24,201 bases of DNA from a virus. This document shows, one piece after another, positions 1-22,350 of the stretch (positions are counted from its first letter, which is position 1; each line of letters opens with the position of its first letter). The position numbers and the translations under genes were made by a program. Where the stretch lies: positions 1-24,201 of IMG/VR virus record IMGVR_UViG_3300034375_012477. The stretch is one strand, 5' to 3'. The notes beneath the pieces are model-generated. The model was not told the DNA's origin. It saw only the letters and a list, made by a program, of their open reading frames with translations, and ran no database searches.

Positions 1-1
1 C

Positions 2-220
2 ATGTACAATCGAGGTTTAGTGGCATGCGAGAGTGGATTGGAACGGAAACAACTGAATTTAGAGGGAGCACGTCTGGGAACGACGGGCTATATTCCTTCA
101 ATGGAGGAAGGGATGGAAATGGGAGCATCACCGAGGTCCAAGACGCTGGTAATGGAGCTGGAGGAGCCGGACGAGAAGGAGATGATGCTGTCGGCCAAAA
201 GACGTGGTTTGATGCGGTAG
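2..220 (+). CDS. Small acidic protein, probably the C-terminal part of a gene cut by the window edge
   Basis: The frame is open from the first bases of the window to a TAG at 218-220. The visible 72 residues become strongly charged toward the end (many Glu, Lys and Met, with a basic last segment SAKRRGLMR). The amino-acid mix is protein-like, whereas the overlapping +1-shifted frame over the same bases is Gly/Asp-rich and looks like a shadow until about position 229. An ATG lies at position 2, but the true start may be upstream of the window. The next plus-strand gene begins 8 nt after the stop, so the two are probably co-transcribed. I do not recognise a family. Confidence 0.45.
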   Translation: MYNRGLVACESGLERKQLNLEGARLGTTGYIPSMEEGMEMGASPRSKTLVMELEEPDEKEMMLSAKRRGLMR

Positions 221-228
221 ATGAAAGT

Positions 229-495
229 ATGGAATGCAAGGATGGTGTGTGTCCTGTCCCCTGGTTAAAAAAACCTACTGACACCGATTACGTAAACCAT
301 CCTCCTCATTACACAGAAGGCGGGCTTGAATGCATTGAAGCAATTGAAGCCCAGCTTACACCAGAGGAATATCGTGGTTATCTAAAAGGTAATATTGCCA
401 AGTATGTTTGGCGTGAGAAACATAAAGGTGGCACTGAATCACTTAGGAAAGCGTCCTGGTATTTAGAACGCCTTATTGGATTCGATAAGGACTAG
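229..495 (+). CDS. DUF3310 (phage nucleotide kinase-like) protein
   Basis: An 88-residue protein with the hallmark of the DUF3310 family: a VNHPPHY motif near residue 24, then GGLECIEAIEA, then a Gly-Asn-Ile-Ala-Lys-Tyr-Val-Trp-Arg helix and a closing pair of helices that ends in WYLERLI. The family is common in tailed phages, including cyanophages, and is sometimes annotated as a nucleotide kinase; its biochemical role is not established. I chose the ATG at 229 because the conserved domain starts shortly after it. The same frame stays open back to an ATG at 25, but that extension is low-complexity Gly/Asp sequence overlapping another plausible gene. The TAG stop shares the tetranucleotide CTAG with the stop of the converging nblA-like gene. 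Confidence 0.85.
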   Translation: MECKDGVCPVPWLKKPTDTDYVNHPPHYTEGGLECIEAIEAQLTPEEYRGYLKGNIAKYVWREKHKGGTESLRKASWYLERLIGFDKD

Positions 496-788
496 AAAGG
501 TTGTAGATCATCATCTTCGTCGTCGTCTTGCAAACAAGCGGCGGCGAGTTCTGCTAATTCAATATCAGTTGGATGATCCCAATCAATTTCAATTTCTTCT
601 TCTGCCATGATGTTTTTAATGGCGTGCCATTCCATCATTCGTTGATGGTACAGATTAAGAAGTGCACACCGTAACTCTTCCCACGTCATTTCCTGGGACT
701 CCACCTCAGCTTTGCGCATTGCAAATTGAAGTTCCAGGGGCAGTGCGAACTCCCGTGGTTCTACTGAATGCTCCATTCCGGTCTTCAT
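492..788 (-). CDS. nblA: NblA-like phycobilisome degradation protein
   Basis: Residues 15-61 of this 98-residue protein align without gaps to cyanobacterial NblA as I remember it: the LPLELQF opening (NblA: LSxEQQF), a basic/Glu helix, the M(T/S)WEEL turn, then LLNLYHQRMM and an IKNIM end. In cyanobacteria NblA is a small helical adaptor that brings Clp protease to phycobilisomes during nutrient stress. In a phage it would let the virus recycle antenna protein or change light harvesting. Unlike the usual roughly 60-residue NblA, this one has a 14-residue leader and a C-terminal tail of about 37 residues that is very acidic (a run of Asp/Glu near residues 88-94). It lies 18 nt downstream of the GH24 endolysin and is the last gene of the minus-strand series. 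An ATG at 776 is an alternative start; neither has a strong ribosome-binding site. The assignment is by remembered motif, not by a search. Confidence 0.8.
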   Translation of the reverse strand: MKTGMEHSVEPREFALPLELQFAMRKAEVESQEMTWEELRCALLNLYHQRMMEWHAIKNIMAEEEIEIDWDHPTDIELAELAAACLQDDDEDDDLQPF

Positions 789-806: not shown

Positions 807-1472
807 CTAATCGTAGCTGTTAAAGATAGAATCCAGGGCGGAATCACAAAAGTCAAGCCACGGATCCTCATCAATGCAAAAATCGTTGGCAAATTCAGAA
901 AGTAAATAAGGATTTAACTTTTCTTCAAGATTGCGTATTGCTCTGACCTGATGCGGAGATGCGCAGTAATTACGGAATGCTTTCAATAAGATTTCCGTTG
1001 ATGACCAGGGGTTTGCTTCAACTTCTTGTAGGAACAAGTTGATCTCTTCCCTTCTGCGATCCAGAAGTCCACCAATTACTTTGTGGTATTCATCAAAGAT
1101 CCATTTGCCTATTTCCTCTGTAGCACCAGAGAAATCTTCTGCTTCAATGCAATCAATCACACTGCTGTACAGAAAAGCGTCCCAGCCTACGGAATGGACA
1201 AATGATACTAGGGCCTGATGCATGGATCCATCAAGACCAAGGTTGAGTTTTAATAGTTGATTTTCAATAACTGATAATTCATGGAAAAGATATTCCAGTG
1301 CTTTTTCTTTTGTACAGCACTGGCCTTTTTTGACGGGAGAACCATCGGGATAGAACTGTGTCCCATACCCGATGGTATAAGGTTCACCACCTGTATGGGG
1401 ATCAGGGTATGCCTTTTCGTTAAACCCTTCGTATTTACGAATTAGATTAACGGCATGCGAAAGATCCGCCAT
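807..1472 (-). CDS. GH24 (T4-type) lysozyme, endolysin
   Basis: A muramidase that would cut the glycan backbone of host peptidoglycan at lysis. With the ATG at 1472 as start (221 residues) the GH24 catalytic pattern is visible: Glu15 in KYEGF, Asp24 in YPDP and Thr33 in YTIGYGT. This matches the E-8aa-D-5aa-T pattern of T4 lysozyme with a short insertion before the Thr. The tail RRREEINLFLQ is also typical of phage lysozymes. No signal sequence is seen, so it probably needs a holin. About 70 residues after the catalytic domain are unassigned. A TTG at 1496 in the same frame is a weaker start, because it would put a perfect 8-bp inverted repeat (1473-1494) inside the gene; with the ATG, that repeat ends exactly at the start codon. 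nblA follows 18 nt downstream. Confidence 0.9.
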   Translation of the reverse strand: MADLSHAVNLIRKYEGFNEKAYPDPHTGGEPYTIGYGTQFYPDGSPVKKGQCCTKEKALEYLFHELSVIENQLLKLNLGLDGSMHQALVSFVHSVGWDAFLYSSVIDCIEAEDFSGATEEIGKWIFDEYHKVIGGLLDRRREEINLFLQEVEANPWSSTEILLKAFRNYCASPHQVRAIRNLEEKLNPYLLSEFANDFCIDEDPWLDFCDSALDSIFNSYD

Positions 1473-1494
1473 GGAAGTAACTACTATTACTTCC
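1473..1494 (-). promoter_or_regulatory. Perfect hairpin flush with the endolysin start codon
   Basis: On the minus strand GGAAGTAA and TTACTTCC form an 8-bp perfect stem around the loop TAGTAG, and the ATG at 1472-1470 follows with no gap. The only purine-rich stretch near the start is inside the 5' arm, so folding would hide it. This could gate endolysin translation or mark an RNA-processing site; the function is inferred. Confidence 0.6.
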
Positions 1495-1507
1495 AATCAT
1501 ACACAAT

Positions 1508-1711: not shown

Positions 1712-2182
1712 TTACTTTTGAACTGTACCTTTCTTTCTTCTATTATTGCATTGCTCTTTATGCGTAGCCCATCTAACGTTTCCTGGCTCGTAATGCCCTA
1801 AGTTGTCAATACGGTCAAGCGACATACCTTCTGGCCTAATTCCAATTTCAGCGATCAACGCTTCTAAAGATTGAAACCGAAATTCAATATTAGTGTAATA
1901 ACCGCCGTGACCTGTTTTACAGCGACGTTTTGCTCTGTAATAGCTATTGCGTGTCCTTAGTAAACCCGCATCATTTTTTACTCCTGTTCCTTTTCGAACG
2001 CTTTTTCTCCCTTTGTATTTACAGGATCGGCAAGTCCATGTCCCACCTTTCCTGTTGTATTGGTCAATTCGAATAGACGAGTTTTTTCCGCAATCCGTAC
2101 AGGCTACGTCAACATAATTCCACCGTGACTCAGGCATGTGGCAAGTAACTCTGAAGAAAGTATACCACTTATGATGATCCAC
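1712..2182 (-). CDS. HNH endonuclease with N-terminal zinc ribbon, probably a homing enzyme
   Basis: A 156-residue protein if it starts at the GTG at 2182, or 141 residues from the ATG at 2137. Residues 28-54 carry two CxxC pairs (C28/C31 and C51/C54), a zinc-ribbon-like knuckle. The C-terminal block is typical of phage HNH homing endonucleases: SLDRID (residues 121-126), then [10 protein letters not shown] (131-140), then KEQCNNRR. Such enzymes cut alleles that lack the endonuclease gene and so spread it. Its 5' end overlaps the 3' end of the upstream conserved gene by 79 nt (GTG start) or 34 nt (ATG start), so the HNH gene appears to have joined onto that gene's end. Neither start has a clear ribosome-binding site. 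Confidence 0.8.
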
Positions 2183-2475
2183 TTCACTTTATGCGACCAG
2201 TAACGTGCTGACATTTTATCAGGATTAGGATCCTGGGCATTATGCCTAGCGTAATACGACTTCTTTCTTGCTTTATCTTTTTCACTCTTTGGATTTTTAC
2301 CAGCACCTTCTACGCCTTGTTGACCAAAGCGTACAATCTTTTCCTTACCTCCTTCACACGCTTTAACCACATGACTCTTGGTTGCATGTCCAGGGGTACG
2401 TTTTGGTTTATTACAAGGCATTGAATCCTTGGCTAATTTTGCAGCTTTAGCTGCTTTCTTCCTTTTATCTGACAT
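2104..2475 (-). CDS. Conserved small basic phage protein (SARYW-type C-terminus), function unknown
   Basis: A 123-residue basic protein. The part from residue 19 ([16 protein letters not shown]), through the KIVRFGQQG motif and the [10 protein letters not shown] segment to [12 protein letters not shown], resembles a small protein I remember from many phage genomes, in which the product ends at or near the final KW. Here the frame runs on for 24 residues that are hydrophobic and unlike the rest (starting [15 protein letters not shown]), coded by DNA shared with the start of the HNH gene. The extension therefore looks like a by-product of the HNH insertion. The first 18 residues are Lys/Ala-rich. 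The gene begins 5 nt after the end of the 742-residue gene. The role is unknown; family recognition is from memory. Confidence 0.75.
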
Positions 2476-2480
2476 AAGTA

Positions 2481-4709
2481 TTAACCGAATAGCGAACCAA
2501 ATCCACCGCCTCTACTCATATTAAAATAGGAAGGTGCATTTTCATCTTCCTCATCACCAAACATATCAAAGTATTTTAATCTAAGTTGACTGGGTGTTTT
2601 ACCAAGTTTTGGTACATCTGTATCTGAACCAAGTGCTCGATCAATCGATGACATTGCAGCAAAAGGATCAGAGAAATCAGGTAATTCAAATCCTAATAAA
2701 CCAGTTAATCCTTTGGAAGAAGTAGCCTGCCCAACGTCAATTGCACTCAAACTTTTATCTTCTTCCGTTGCATCAGGAAGAAATTCTTTATAAAAATCTG
2801 CTTCACTGCCGCCAAATCCTGCGTTCTTAAATACTTTATACAATGCACTGCCACCAGCTGGAGCAGCTACTTGTTCATCGGTATCTCTTTGAATGTAACC
2901 ATAACCAAGTTGTTCTTGCGTTGGCTTAATCTTTTGTTCGTTTAGCTGTCTAATGTCTTCTCGAATCTGTAAAGCAGGATCTGTACGTAAGATCTGAGCC
3001 AAGGCATCTTTTACTTCTCCAGCTGGATCTGTCTTTTCATTAACACCAAGTCCTCGCAAGCGATCTTGTAACTCAGCAGGTAAAGCTGCAATATTTAACT
3101 TATCTACTAAATCAGCTGCCTTAGCTTCTGCTGATACAAAATCAGCAAATACAGGACTTGGCAAAGAAGCTTTTTGCGCCTCCAACGCGGTCGCAAGGTC
3201 ACCTTGAATGTATTGTGCAAGATCTTGCCTGGTGTAAGTATCAGGGGCAGGATCATATCCTTTGCCTTTACCAATAACTTCGTAATGAAGGCGAGCAAAA
3301 TCAGCTTTGTTTTCTAGATCTAAACCATATTCATAAGCTAGTTGACTCCAGGATTTACCATCAATAACAGCAGCATCACTGTTGCGTGCGTTCCAGGCTG
3401 CATCAACAGCTATTTTTTGTTCAGCGTAGGTTGCTTGTTTTGCAGTTACATCAGTGCCTGTAATTGTTTCAGGATTAAAGTAAAAATTAGCATCAAAGCC
3501 ACGTGTAACCTGGTTTGAACCAAGGCTATCAATATATGTATTTGCTTGTTTATTAGCGTAATCTTTTAATGCGCTAGATGCAAGCTGTGTCTGCAGAGCG
3601 TTCTGCTCATCTTTTGTAACGTCAATATAACTAACAAATTCAGAGATAGATTTAGAAGTATCAAAACGCGGTTTTAAATAATCATTGATGAAACCATTAA
3701 CAAATTCTTGTTCTAGTTTGTATTTAATATTTGCATCTTCTGGGTTGGTGATCTCGCTCATATTGCGATATCTTTCTGTTAATGTTTTGTCAAACCAATC
3801 TTGCCAGTTGTAAGCAACAGAAGATCCAATACCAAGGCTTCTGTCCAACGTCGCAGATAATCCTTTTTCAACATCAGAACCAGCATTGAACCCAAGAAAA
3901 CCACCAAATCCTGAATCGCCTAATATTGAATTTTTAATATCTTGTTTTAAAGAATTAACAGATGGCATTCCCATTCCCTGGAAAATATTAGCCATTTGCT
4001 CTTTCTTTAATGCCTTGCTGTACTCATTAAGAGTTTGTTTCAATACGTCTGCTGATAAGGCACCAAATGCTTGTTCCCCTTGTTTATCAACAAGGCTTTG
4101 GGTGGCAAGCGCTGCAAGTGAATCCGGTCTTGCTTCGCTTGTACCAGTTATTGTTTCCCTTAAGATCTGACGCTCTCTATCGGTAGGTGCTCTACCAACT
4201 TCTGTATACACTTCAAGATCTCTTGGTTTACCTAACCTGCCACTTGGTGCGCCAACCAGGGTGTAATTTGCATGCAAAAAAGAATCTAAATCAGCGTACT
4301 TCTTTGTAATATCAACGTCAGCAATCTTTTGCCCGCCAAAAGAAACAGAGGTGGATGCGTTATTCCAGCTAGCAACTTCATCTGGTACTTGCTTTGAATA
4401 AAACTTGGCATCAAAGGTAGATAGATCAGCGCCTTGTTTAGTCGGATCCCACTGGGAAATGCCTGAAGCAGTAGCGTAAAAATTTTCTAGTTCCTGTACT
4501 GTTTGCTGATCAATGTAATCATTTGGATTTGTATAATTACCCTGGAGCGATTGATCCAGGGATTCCATCAACTGCTTGTAGTTTGTATCTCCAGCTTGTA
4601 TTCCATTAAAACGCTGCGCAATCTGACCAGCAACAGCCTTCTCATCTTCTGTTGCGTCAGCTGGTAATACAGGAGTAAGTACACCAGCCTTTACGTTAAA
4701 CCGGATCAT
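2481..4709 (-). CDS. Large 742-residue protein, probably a virion component, unknown function
   Basis: One of the longest genes in the window. It starts with an ATG whose bases overlap the TGA of the upstream HNH gene (ATGA), so it is translated from the same message. The protein is hydrophilic, rich in Asp, Gln, Ala and Tyr, mostly helical in character, without signal peptide, membrane segment or recognisable catalytic motif. Its Gly/Phe-rich ends and Asp/Glu-rich C-terminal segment (FGDEEDEN, then SRGGGFGSLFG) are of the kind seen in internal or tail virion proteins. Its base composition is clearly more AT-rich than the capsid genes. The virion role is inferred from size, composition and position near the lysis genes only. 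Confidence 0.7.
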   Translation of the reverse strand: MIRFNVKAGVLTPVLPADATEDEKAVAGQIAQRFNGIQAGDTNYKQLMESLDQSLQGNYTNPNDYIDQQTVQELENFYATASGISQWDPTKQGADLSTFDAKFYSKQVPDEVASWNNASTSVSFGGQKIADVDITKKYADLDSFLHANYTLVGAPSGRLGKPRDLEVYTEVGRAPTDRERQILRETITGTSEARPDSLAALATQSLVDKQGEQAFGALSADVLKQTLNEYSKALKKEQMANIFQGMGMPSVNSLKQDIKNSILGDSGFGGFLGFNAGSDVEKGLSATLDRSLGIGSSVAYNWQDWFDKTLTERYRNMSEITNPEDANIKYKLEQEFVNGFINDYLKPRFDTSKSISEFVSYIDVTKDEQNALQTQLASSALKDYANKQANTYIDSLGSNQVTRGFDANFYFNPETITGTDVTAKQATYAEQKIAVDAAWNARNSDAAVIDGKSWSQLAYEYGLDLENKADFARLHYEVIGKGKGYDPAPDTYTRQDLAQYIQGDLATALEAQKASLPSPVFADFVSAEAKAADLVDKLNIAALPAELQDRLRGLGVNEKTDPAGEVKDALAQILRTDPALQIREDIRQLNEQKIKPTQEQLGYGYIQRDTDEQVAAPAGGSALYKVFKNAGFGGSEADFYKEFLPDATEEDKSLSAIDVGQATSSKGLTGLLGFELPDFSDPFAAMSSIDRALGSDTDVPKLGKTPSQLRLKYFDMFGDEEDENAPSYFNMSRGGGFGSLFG

Positions 4710-5062
4710 GATGCTTTTCTATATGCGTTAAAATCGACGAGGCTAAACTCATCTGGTTTCATCCAGGTTTTTATTCTATTCAACTTTTCTTCACTAAAGA
4801 AATCTTGTTGTTTGTACCAGGTTTCCATGTCGGCTGATGCCTTGTTAGCATTGCATCGGCAACAAGCAGGAACAAGGTTGTTCCGGTTAGAACAACCAGA
4901 TTTAAAGCGAGGAATAATATGATCAAGGCTTGTAGCAACTCCTTCACAATACCCACACTTATTATCCCAAGCTTGGTATATACTTTGTCGGAAACGTTTT
5001 TTGGCAAGTTTAGGTGTTAATTCAACTAGCAGGGCAAGCGGCTCATGCTGGTTGCAAAACAT
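4706..5062 (-). CDS. HNH endonuclease (McrA-like type)
   Basis: A 118-residue protein with a complete HNH core: a CxxC knuckle at 36-39 (CGYC), the SLDHIIPRFKSG segment with Asp47-His48, NNL at 61-63 and a second Cys pair at 68/70 followed by NANK. This ββα-metal fold cuts DNA; free-standing copies in phages are often homing enzymes, but some act with the packaging terminase. Here it is far from the terminase and lies at the boundary between the large unknown protein and the recombinase/HTH cluster, so a selfish or nicking role seems more likely. Its stop overlaps the ATG of the next gene by 4 nt. An AAGAAAAG upstream of the start is a weak ribosome-binding site. Confidence 0.85.
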   Translation of the reverse strand: MFCNQHEPLALLVELTPKLAKKRFRQSIYQAWDNKCGYCEGVATSLDHIIPRFKSGCSNRNNLVPACCRCNANKASADMETWYKQQDFFSEEKLNRIKTWMKPDEFSLVDFNAYRKAS

Positions 5063-13591: not shown

Positions 13592-14417
13592 CTGGTCTCT
13601 AGTTTCTTAGAGGGGTGGACTATCTCTTCATCCCTGTGGGATGCCGGACGCTGAATCTGGTATTACGTAACAAGATCGTGTTACCCCCAGTAGTCTCTGC
13701 ACCTTCCAATCACGTTCTTGATTGGCTTGGCTCAGGATTACCCTCGTCTTTACGTTAGGGCTTCCCTGAATTCATCCGGTTTGCACTCATCAATTGCTTG
13801 GTGAGGTGACAACGTTGAGCGTTCAGTTGAGGCGTGCTACAGTCTGGAAACCTGTTTATAAACAACATGAATCCAAAACTTGTTCCAGGATTTGGTAATC
13901 TTTACTTAACGGAAGAAGGGAAAGCTTTTGAAAAACAACTTGATCCCGATAATCAAGAATATTTTCTAGAGATTCCTATTAGTTCCACCAGTGTTTACGA
14001 CCGTATTTCAGTTCTTGTAGATGGAAAGAGAAAAAGATTTCATCTTCACGTCTTGATGGCAATTGCTTTTTTAGGATTAGATCTGCGTTCTCATGGAACC
14101 AGTAACTTTTCCCTACAGATTGATCACAAAGATAACAACAAGAGAAATAATCAACTTGCTAATCTTGAGATCGTTACCAAACAAGAAAATTTAACAAGAG
14201 CCTGGGAAAACGGTTGTTACAAAAACAATGGTTTTGCCAGTAAAGGAAAGCCGAAGAAATCTTTGAGAAAATTTTCTTCGGATGACGTGAAACAAATTAA
14301 ATCTTTAAAAGAAGCAGGTCTTTCTTATAGAAAAATTGCTGAAAAATTTAACTGTAATCACGGAGCTATTTACCAAATCTTGAAGGGACATACCTACCAG
14401 GATCTGAACTAGCTATC
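13592..14417 (-). ncRNA. Group I intron in the major capsid gene
   Basis: On the minus strand the conserved core elements occur in order: P, AATTCAGGGAAGCCC (about 13758-13772); Q, AATCCTGAGCCAAGCC (13725-13739); R, GGTGCAGAGACTA (13691-13703); S, AAGAGATAGTCC (13617-13628). P4 (TTCAGG/CCTGAG), P6a (CCAATCA/TGATTGG), P7 (GACTA/TAGTC) and P8 (GTAAC/GTTAC) all pair, and CATCCC/GGGATG forms a further hairpin. The 5' exon GTGTTCATT can pair with GATGAGTGC (13783-13791), or its last seven bases with GATGAAT (13770-13776), both giving the obligatory U-G pair at the splice site. The 3' end is placed at the G at 13592, which restores the reading frame; 13589 is an in-frame alternative. About 280 nt is ribozyme; the rest is an inserted HNH gene on the other strand. 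The subgroup was not determined. Confidence 0.88.
13867..14412 (+). CDS. Intron-borne HNH homing endonuclease, antisense to the intron
   Basis: A 181-residue protein starting MNPKLVPGFGNLYLTEEG. It has the build of group I intron HNH enzymes (I-HmuI type): an N-terminal beta region, HLHVLMAIAFLG (residues 59-70), IDHKDNNKRNNQLANL (85-100) and EIVTKQEN, followed by a C-terminal HTH (SSDDVKQIKSL, then AGLSYRKIAEKFNCNHGAIYQIL, about 137-172) that would bind the target. A GTG at 13834 is an alternative start. It lies wholly within the intron, its stop 5 nt from the 5' splice site, but is read in the opposite direction, so it needs its own plus-strand promoter; I see no convincing one. A 12-bp palindrome (TGTTTATAAACA, 13853-13864) precedes the ATG. 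It is more AT-rich than the capsid gene, as expected for a mobile gene. Confidence 0.88.
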   Translation: MNPKLVPGFGNLYLTEEGKAFEKQLDPDNQEYFLEIPISSTSVYDRISVLVDGKRKRFHLHVLMAIAFLGLDLRSHGTSNFSLQIDHKDNNKRNNQLANLEIVTKQENLTRAWENGCYKNNGFASKGKPKKSLRKFSSDDVKQIKSLKEAGLSYRKIAEKFNCNHGAIYQILKGHTYQDLN

Positions 14418-21993: not shown

Positions 21994-22350
21994 TCACCTA
22001 TAAAAAGATGTTAGAAACTCTTGGAAACGACGACTTTTTAAATCGCGGCTCCTGTTTGCACGGTTTCTAGGCTTGGAGCCACCACGGCCACGGCCTCCCA
22101 TAGGACCACGATCATCCACAATGGGACCACGTACGTTTTGTAAGTCGGCTGCGGTCATAGAATCACGGCCTCCCATAGGACCACGATCATCCACAATGGG
22201 ACCACGTACGTTTTGTAAGTCGGCTGCGGTCATAGAATCACGGCCACGGCCTAAAGATACACTAGAGGGAGGCCTGCGGCCACCTCTAACGTTGCTGCCT
22301 CTGTCCCATACAGAACTAGCTTGCGCAGATGTAAAAGGATTAATACGCAT
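21994..22350 (-). CDS. 118-residue Arg/Gly-rich protein with a 25-residue tandem repeat
   Basis: Starts MRINPFTSAQASSVWDRGSNV. The centre holds two identical copies of a 25-residue unit (GRDSMTAADLQNVRGP followed by IVDDRGPMG), coded by an exact 75-bp tandem repeat. The end is very basic (GRGRGGSKPRNRANRSRDLKSRR broken by Lys-Pro). AGGTGG at good spacing before the ATG supports translation. RG-rich proteins often bind nucleic acid; the real function is unknown. Confidence 0.6.
   Translation of the reverse strand: MRINPFTSAQASSVWDRGSNVRGGRRPPSSVSLGRGRDSMTAADLQNVRGPIVDDRGPMGGRDSMTAADLQNVRGPIVDDRGPMGGRGRGGSKPRNRANRSRDLKSRRFQEFLTSFYR
22089..22245. repeat. Exact 75-bp tandem repeat, 2.1 copies
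   Basis: The segment from 22089 recurs at 22164 without a difference over the whole period. The period is a multiple of three, so the reading frame of the RG-rich gene is kept and the protein repeats 25 residues. Confidence 0.95.

Follow-up and report, generated by a model that had tools for sequence, protein, structure and literature searches.

NblA is an adaptor of ClpC and hands proteins of the phycobilisome over to the Clp protease (PMC7966870), and it has been reported that NblA contacts the phycobilisome via its C-terminal side (PMC7760959). Phage-encoded NblA is known in Ma-LMM01, MaMV-DC, PaV-LD, marine podoviruses, S-TIM5, and S-SCSM1, and phage NblAs of other lineages degrade phycobilisomes (PMC9602691). 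According to two papers that cite Nadel et al. 2025 (PMC12892361, PMC13386980), phage NblA is thought to lower oceanic photosynthetic light capture. Host NblAs (PF04485; structures 1ojh and 3cs5) pair their two-helix hairpins into a four-helix-bundle dimer; those read are 57–66 aa long, and the phage NblAs of Ma-LMM01, PaV-LD, and S-SCSM1 have 65, 54, and 54 aa, respectively, the last of these falling in a separate PHROG, 27081. A second described system that bears on the present locus is the C-terminal tip of SSB (SSB-Ct), which reads DFDDDIPF in E. coli and EDEIPF in SSBs of putative picocyanobacteria, and whose terminal Phe fits, with its side chain and carboxyl group, into a pocket found on many proteins of genome maintenance (PMC10164576). 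The closest relative of the locus itself is found in the Synechococcus phage S-EIV1, where the orthologue AHV82245.1 is annotated as a "hypothetical protein" and its gene is the neighbour of the lysozyme gene.

The gene described here lies in the window, i.e., the whole stretch of 24,201 bases that was analysed (IMG/VR virus record IMGVR_UViG_3300034375_012477), and the coordinates of its parts and neighbours are collected in Table 1. It is confirmed as a real open reading frame on the minus strand and encodes the protein MKTGMEHSVEPREFALPLELQFAMRKAEVESQEMTWEELRCALLNLYHQRMMEWHAIKNIMAEEEIEIDWDHPTDIELAELAAACLQDDDEDDDLQPF; the plus-strand reading of the same interval contains in-frame stops and was ruled out. 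The conserved start is possibly Met5 rather than Met1, because a second clade of relatives starts at the Met5 column, and by eye no clear ribosome-binding site was found upstream of either methionine (window 776–788). The initial annotation had described the protein as about 1.6 times the usual length for NblA with an acidic C-terminal tail, and both statements hold, as its length compares with 57–66 aa in host NblAs and an acidic run DDDEDDD occupies residues 88–94. Downstream, the stop of the NblA-like gene and the convergent DUF3310 open reading frame share 4 nt (CTAG).

Table 1. Positions in the window of the NblA-like gene, its parts, and the flanking genes.
Feature	Position	Strand	Remarks
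NblA-like gene	492..788	-	ATG at 788, TAG at 494-492; 98 aa
Alternative NblA-like start	Met5, 776	-	94 aa if used
NblA core	603..743	-	residues 16-62; PF04485, hhalign, AlphaFold2 predicted hairpin
Third helix (predicted)	531..566	-	residues 75-86, within the conserved segment IDWDHPTDIELAELAAAC; absent from host NblAs
Acidic linker DDDEDDD	507..527	-	residues 88-94; length and order differ among relatives
C-terminal tip LQPF	495..506	-	residues 95-98; SSB-Ct-like
Endolysin (phage lysozyme) gene	807..1496	-	PF00959, E 5e-21; 18 nt before the NblA-like start
DUF3310 gene	1..495	+	ORF extends past the window start; convergent to the NblA-like gene

Judged by its proteins, the window is a member of the S-EIV1 cyanophage lineage, whose namesake infects a polar freshwater Synechococcus. 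The portal-type protein shows 74% identity over 99% of its length to that of S-EIV1, which is its sole match in the phage collection; the lysozyme is 58% identical to the S-EIV1 lysozyme, and the NblA-like protein is 63% identical to AHV82245.1 over residues 5–74. AHV82245.1 occupies the same slot behind the lysozyme gene and before a DUF3310-type gene, but its acidic linker is longer and its tip is ELAPF instead of LQPF. A near-identical NblA-like gene (L005, 99%) is carried by a 78-kb contig (G001), and five scans of IMG/VR gave at least 324, 31, 556, 588, and 17 related stretches, respectively. Among distinct relatives with enough flanking sequence, a lysozyme gene lies directly upstream in 79 of 79 and a convergent DUF3310 gene downstream in 82 of 82, so that the position behind the endolysin pointed out in the initial annotation is a property of the family, and no relative examined departs from the order endolysin, nblA-like gene, convergent DUF3310 gene. 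The NblA-like gene is therefore not a one-off but a fixed part of the S-EIV1-type lineage, with at least 324 to at least 588 stretches in the three broadest scans. Since the gene sits at the end of the series of structural and lysis genes, it is probably expressed late.

Other genes of the window also deserve mention. Three HNH-type endonuclease genes are found among the structural genes, at 1712–2182 (minus), 4706–5062 (minus), and 13834–14412 (plus). A short gene at 2104–2475 (minus) is common to phages of unrelated marine bacteria; its DNA (2179–2413) shares 69% identity with Puniceispirillum phage HMO-2011 and, across 103 bases, 76% with Roseobacter phage CRP-9. At 21994–22350 (minus) there is an imperfect in-frame direct repeat, in which DSMTAADLQNVRGPIVDDRGPMGG is encoded twice in tandem.

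The initial annotation had proposed a gap-free NblA match at residues 15–61, to be checked by a profile search and a structure prediction. HMMER aligns residues 16–62 with positions 2–48 of the PF04485 profile without gaps (E 2.1e-4), which bears out the proposal; all 22 aligned relatives match the same family (best E 1e-5), and the runner-up family is matched by only 8 of the 22 (best E 0.11). The window protein by itself, however, scores 22.1 bits, under the curated cut-off of 25. When the phage family was compared with 14 host and phage NblAs by hhalign, columns 14–63 of the former were aligned without gaps to columns 5–54 of the latter (probability 93.7, P 2e-7), and in a profile search of the PDB the top match was NblA itself (1ojh, E 0.0039). 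A further PDB match, to a V-type ATPase (8wci), covers residues 52–84 only (E 0.06) and was judged to be chance. The best PHROG for the window protein is 23930, a weak match (E 0.046), and the same PHROG is matched by the NblA of Ma-LMM01 at 1.1e-5; an NCBIfam search with the window protein gave no match. Several weak PF04485 matches in small cyanobacterial genomes were dropped, as their frames overlap rpoC or other genes.

The predicted fold agrees with the profile results. An AlphaFold2 monomer model, run on the family alignment, contains the expected paired-helix hairpin (helices 18–32 and 36–63, pLDDT about 85) and an additional short helix at residues 75–86, while residues 87–98 are without secondary structure and pLDDT falls below 50 at 93–98. 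A Foldseek search with this model gave no match in the PDB and none of significance among the viral models of BFVD; for so short and helical a protein, this null result is not counted against NblA homology. From the PF04485 match, the matches of the relatives, hhalign, 1ojh, and the predicted hairpin, it is concluded that the homology of the core to NblA is distant but real. The likeness to host NblA thus consists of a gap-free core of 50 residues and a predicted two-helix hairpin; the phage protein differs in adding the third helix, the acidic linker, and the Pro-Phe tip.

The core also differs from other NblAs at one position. The family alignment has 28 invariant columns, and Ala62 is invariant in the phage family; at the aligned residue, position 53 in Anabaena, each of the 14 NblAs compared carries Lys or Arg. 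In work by Bienert et al. from 2006, K53 of Anabaena NblA is said to have a role in phycobilisome binding. The invariant Ala in place of a basic residue therefore suggests that phycobilisome binding may be lost or altered in the phage family. The view that NblA activity is precedented in phages is right insofar as active phage NblAs are known (PMC9602691), but this replacement means that activity on phycobilisomes cannot be assumed here.

The tail behind the core was compared across 93 distinct proteins, all of them complete and no shorter than 80 aa, taken from the retained loci. After the core, a conserved segment with D-x-P-T and E-x-x-E-L (the third helix) leads into the acidic stretch, and 85 of the 93 proteins end in Pro-Phe-COOH after a run of Asp/Glu, as in DDDEDDDLQPF of the window protein. 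Among the 85, position -5 is Glu or Asp in 77, position -4 is Leu, Val, or another hydrophobic residue in about 80, and across the full set the last 16 residues are free of Lys and Arg in 71. The initial annotation had stressed a tail dense in Asp/Glu; the tail is indeed acidic, but what is conserved is the Pro-Phe C-terminus that follows the acidic run. Among 136 distinct genes, Pro is encoded by CCT, CCG, or CCC and Phe by TTC or TTT, and this silent variation indicates that the protein sequence is the conserved thing. Among relatives, 13 nt or 4 nt are shared with the DUF3310 gene, or the two genes do not overlap, and Pro-Phe is retained in each case, which rules out that its conservation is forced by the convergent overlap. 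The tip is not universal, since a deep clade of six cores has acidic tails ending in CFL, CLL, SFL, FAV, SAV, and PVG, and one single protein (L401) likewise has an acidic tail without Pro-Phe. No such tail was found among about 35 distinct host NblAs, and neither an acidic tail nor a Pro-Phe end is present in the phage NblAs of Ma-LMM01, PaV-LD, and S-SCSM1, whose likeness to the present protein is that they are phage-encoded members of the NblA family.

The ending resembles that of SSB, in which acidic residues on a disordered linker are likewise followed by a free-ended Pro-Phe. Seven SSBs of hosts that their genome size marks as probable picocyanobacteria end in EDEIPF or EEEIPF and six other host SSBs in DDIPF; the SSB of S-EIV1, encoded like that of the related phages by a gene separate from the NblA-like gene, ends in TDEPF, and SSB ends in related phages include HEPF, EEPF, EPPF, EVPF, DEPF, MVPF, DQPF, NAPF, EQPF, and NQPF. 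A Pro-Phe end occurs in 13 of the 877 open reading frames of S-EIV1 and six relatives, namely in six NblA-like proteins, five SSBs, and two unrelated single cases, so that SSB and the NblA-like protein are the only conserved Pro-Phe enders of these seven genomes. There are two differences from SSB-Ct. The phage tip is borne by an NblA-type helical hairpin (hhalign, AlphaFold2), the OB-fold ssDNA-binding domain being absent, and in it Pro is mostly separated from the hydrophobic residue by an additional position (LQPF versus IPF). By its sequence pattern, the chance that a Pro-Phe end arose by accident on an acidic tail and then persisted across the lineage seems small. When the tails of SSB and of the NblA-like protein were compared for covariation, the only phage of the Pro-Phe-lacking clade whose SSB was read (G014) has an SSB (L122/L452) that continues past DDNEHF and ends in CFQLF, without Pro-Phe; its close relative L453 stops at DDNEHF and lies on a contig that is not linked to an NblA gene. 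The absence of Pro-Phe from both the SSB and the NblA-like tail of G014 is suggestive, though it concerns one lineage. It had been proposed earlier that the tail could change the protease or phycobilisome partner; this is possible, and its sequence resembles SSB-Ct more. In the literature searched, which was without Nadel 2019, Nadel 2025, and Chenard 2015, neither a link between NblA, cyanophages, and SSB nor a description of the S-EIV1 NblA-like protein was found.

The most economical reading of the locus is a composite one, in which a diverged NblA-type adaptor carries a docking peptide that resembles the SSB tip, and on the sequence evidence we give it about an even chance. This diverged NblA-family adaptor would be the product of a late gene fixed in S-EIV1-type cyanophages, and its hairpin core most likely keeps the ability to dimerise and to act like NblA, bringing a host target to ClpC–ClpP late in infection, with phycobilisome subunits as the default guess. 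C-terminal to the core, the protein would have gained the short helix, the acidic disordered linker, and the Pro-Phe-COOH tip, and the tip would most likely bind a partner with an SSB-tip pocket, either host proteins of the RecO/RecG/PriA type or phage replication proteins. The late expression, the delivery to ClpC, the phycobilisome target, and the partner of the tip are what we infer within this scheme. That the tip is a functional mimic of the SSB tip is a tentative proposal, which we hold to be somewhat less probable than its negation. A more specific form, in which the NblA-type proteolysis adaptor is fused to an SSB-tip mimic and docks on the hub of SSB partners (host repair, recombination, and replication restart, or the phage replisome), either blocking these partners or delivering them to ClpC, is equally tentative.

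Three other explanations have been weighed against the composite adaptor. The one that survives best, though it appears rather unlikely, is that the protein is an ordinary phage NblA whose core degrades phycobilisomes and whose acidic tail serves solubility or charge without binding any particular partner. Core homology, the activity of phage NblAs from other lineages (PMC9602691), and the clade that retains an acidic run without Pro-Phe are all in keeping with it, but a charge element needs no exact Pro-Phe end, yet this end is kept in 85 of 93 proteins through silent codon changes, and the tail is absent from the other phage and host NblAs read. Less probable still, and in our view unlikely, is that the protein does not act on phycobilisomes at all and that its NblA-like hairpin now serves as a dimer scaffold for SSB-like tips, which would block SSB partners of the host or the phage, or titrate them, in recombination, nuclease action, or replication late in infection. 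The SSB-like tip and the invariant Ala at a site where all 14 compared NblAs are basic would fit such a scaffold, as would the fact that NblA acts on phycobilisomes via its C-terminal side (PMC7760959), exactly the side that is rebuilt in the phage protein. Against it, the core can still be recognised as NblA and is strongly conserved, as the number of invariant columns shows.

In the ClpX adaptor SspB, the tail docks on the unfoldase. By analogy, the adaptor could carry its target while the C-terminal peptide, on a flexible linker, engages ClpC or a different Clp unfoldase, and the layout of a folded domain, a disordered linker of variable length, and a conserved terminal peptide, together with the role of NblA-family proteins as ClpC adaptors (PMC7966870), would suit such a tether, but it is quite improbable, as host NblAs need no tail to bind ClpC, no known acidic Pro-Phe peptide docking on ClpC was found, and the tip matches host and phage SSB tips instead.

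The composite adaptor thus remains the preferred reading, and its interest lies in several points. The lineage is very widespread, and as far as was found its NblA-like gene is annotated only as hypothetical. The novel part is the tail, which is absent from all other NblAs read. It has been reported that S. elongatus UTEX 3055 carries an 89-kb prophage that is nearest to S-EIV1 (PMC9239245), and this prophage could offer a tractable laboratory system for the NblA-like gene. If the tip is a working mimic of the SSB tip, DNA metabolism and a protease adaptor of light harvesting would be linked through one small phage protein.
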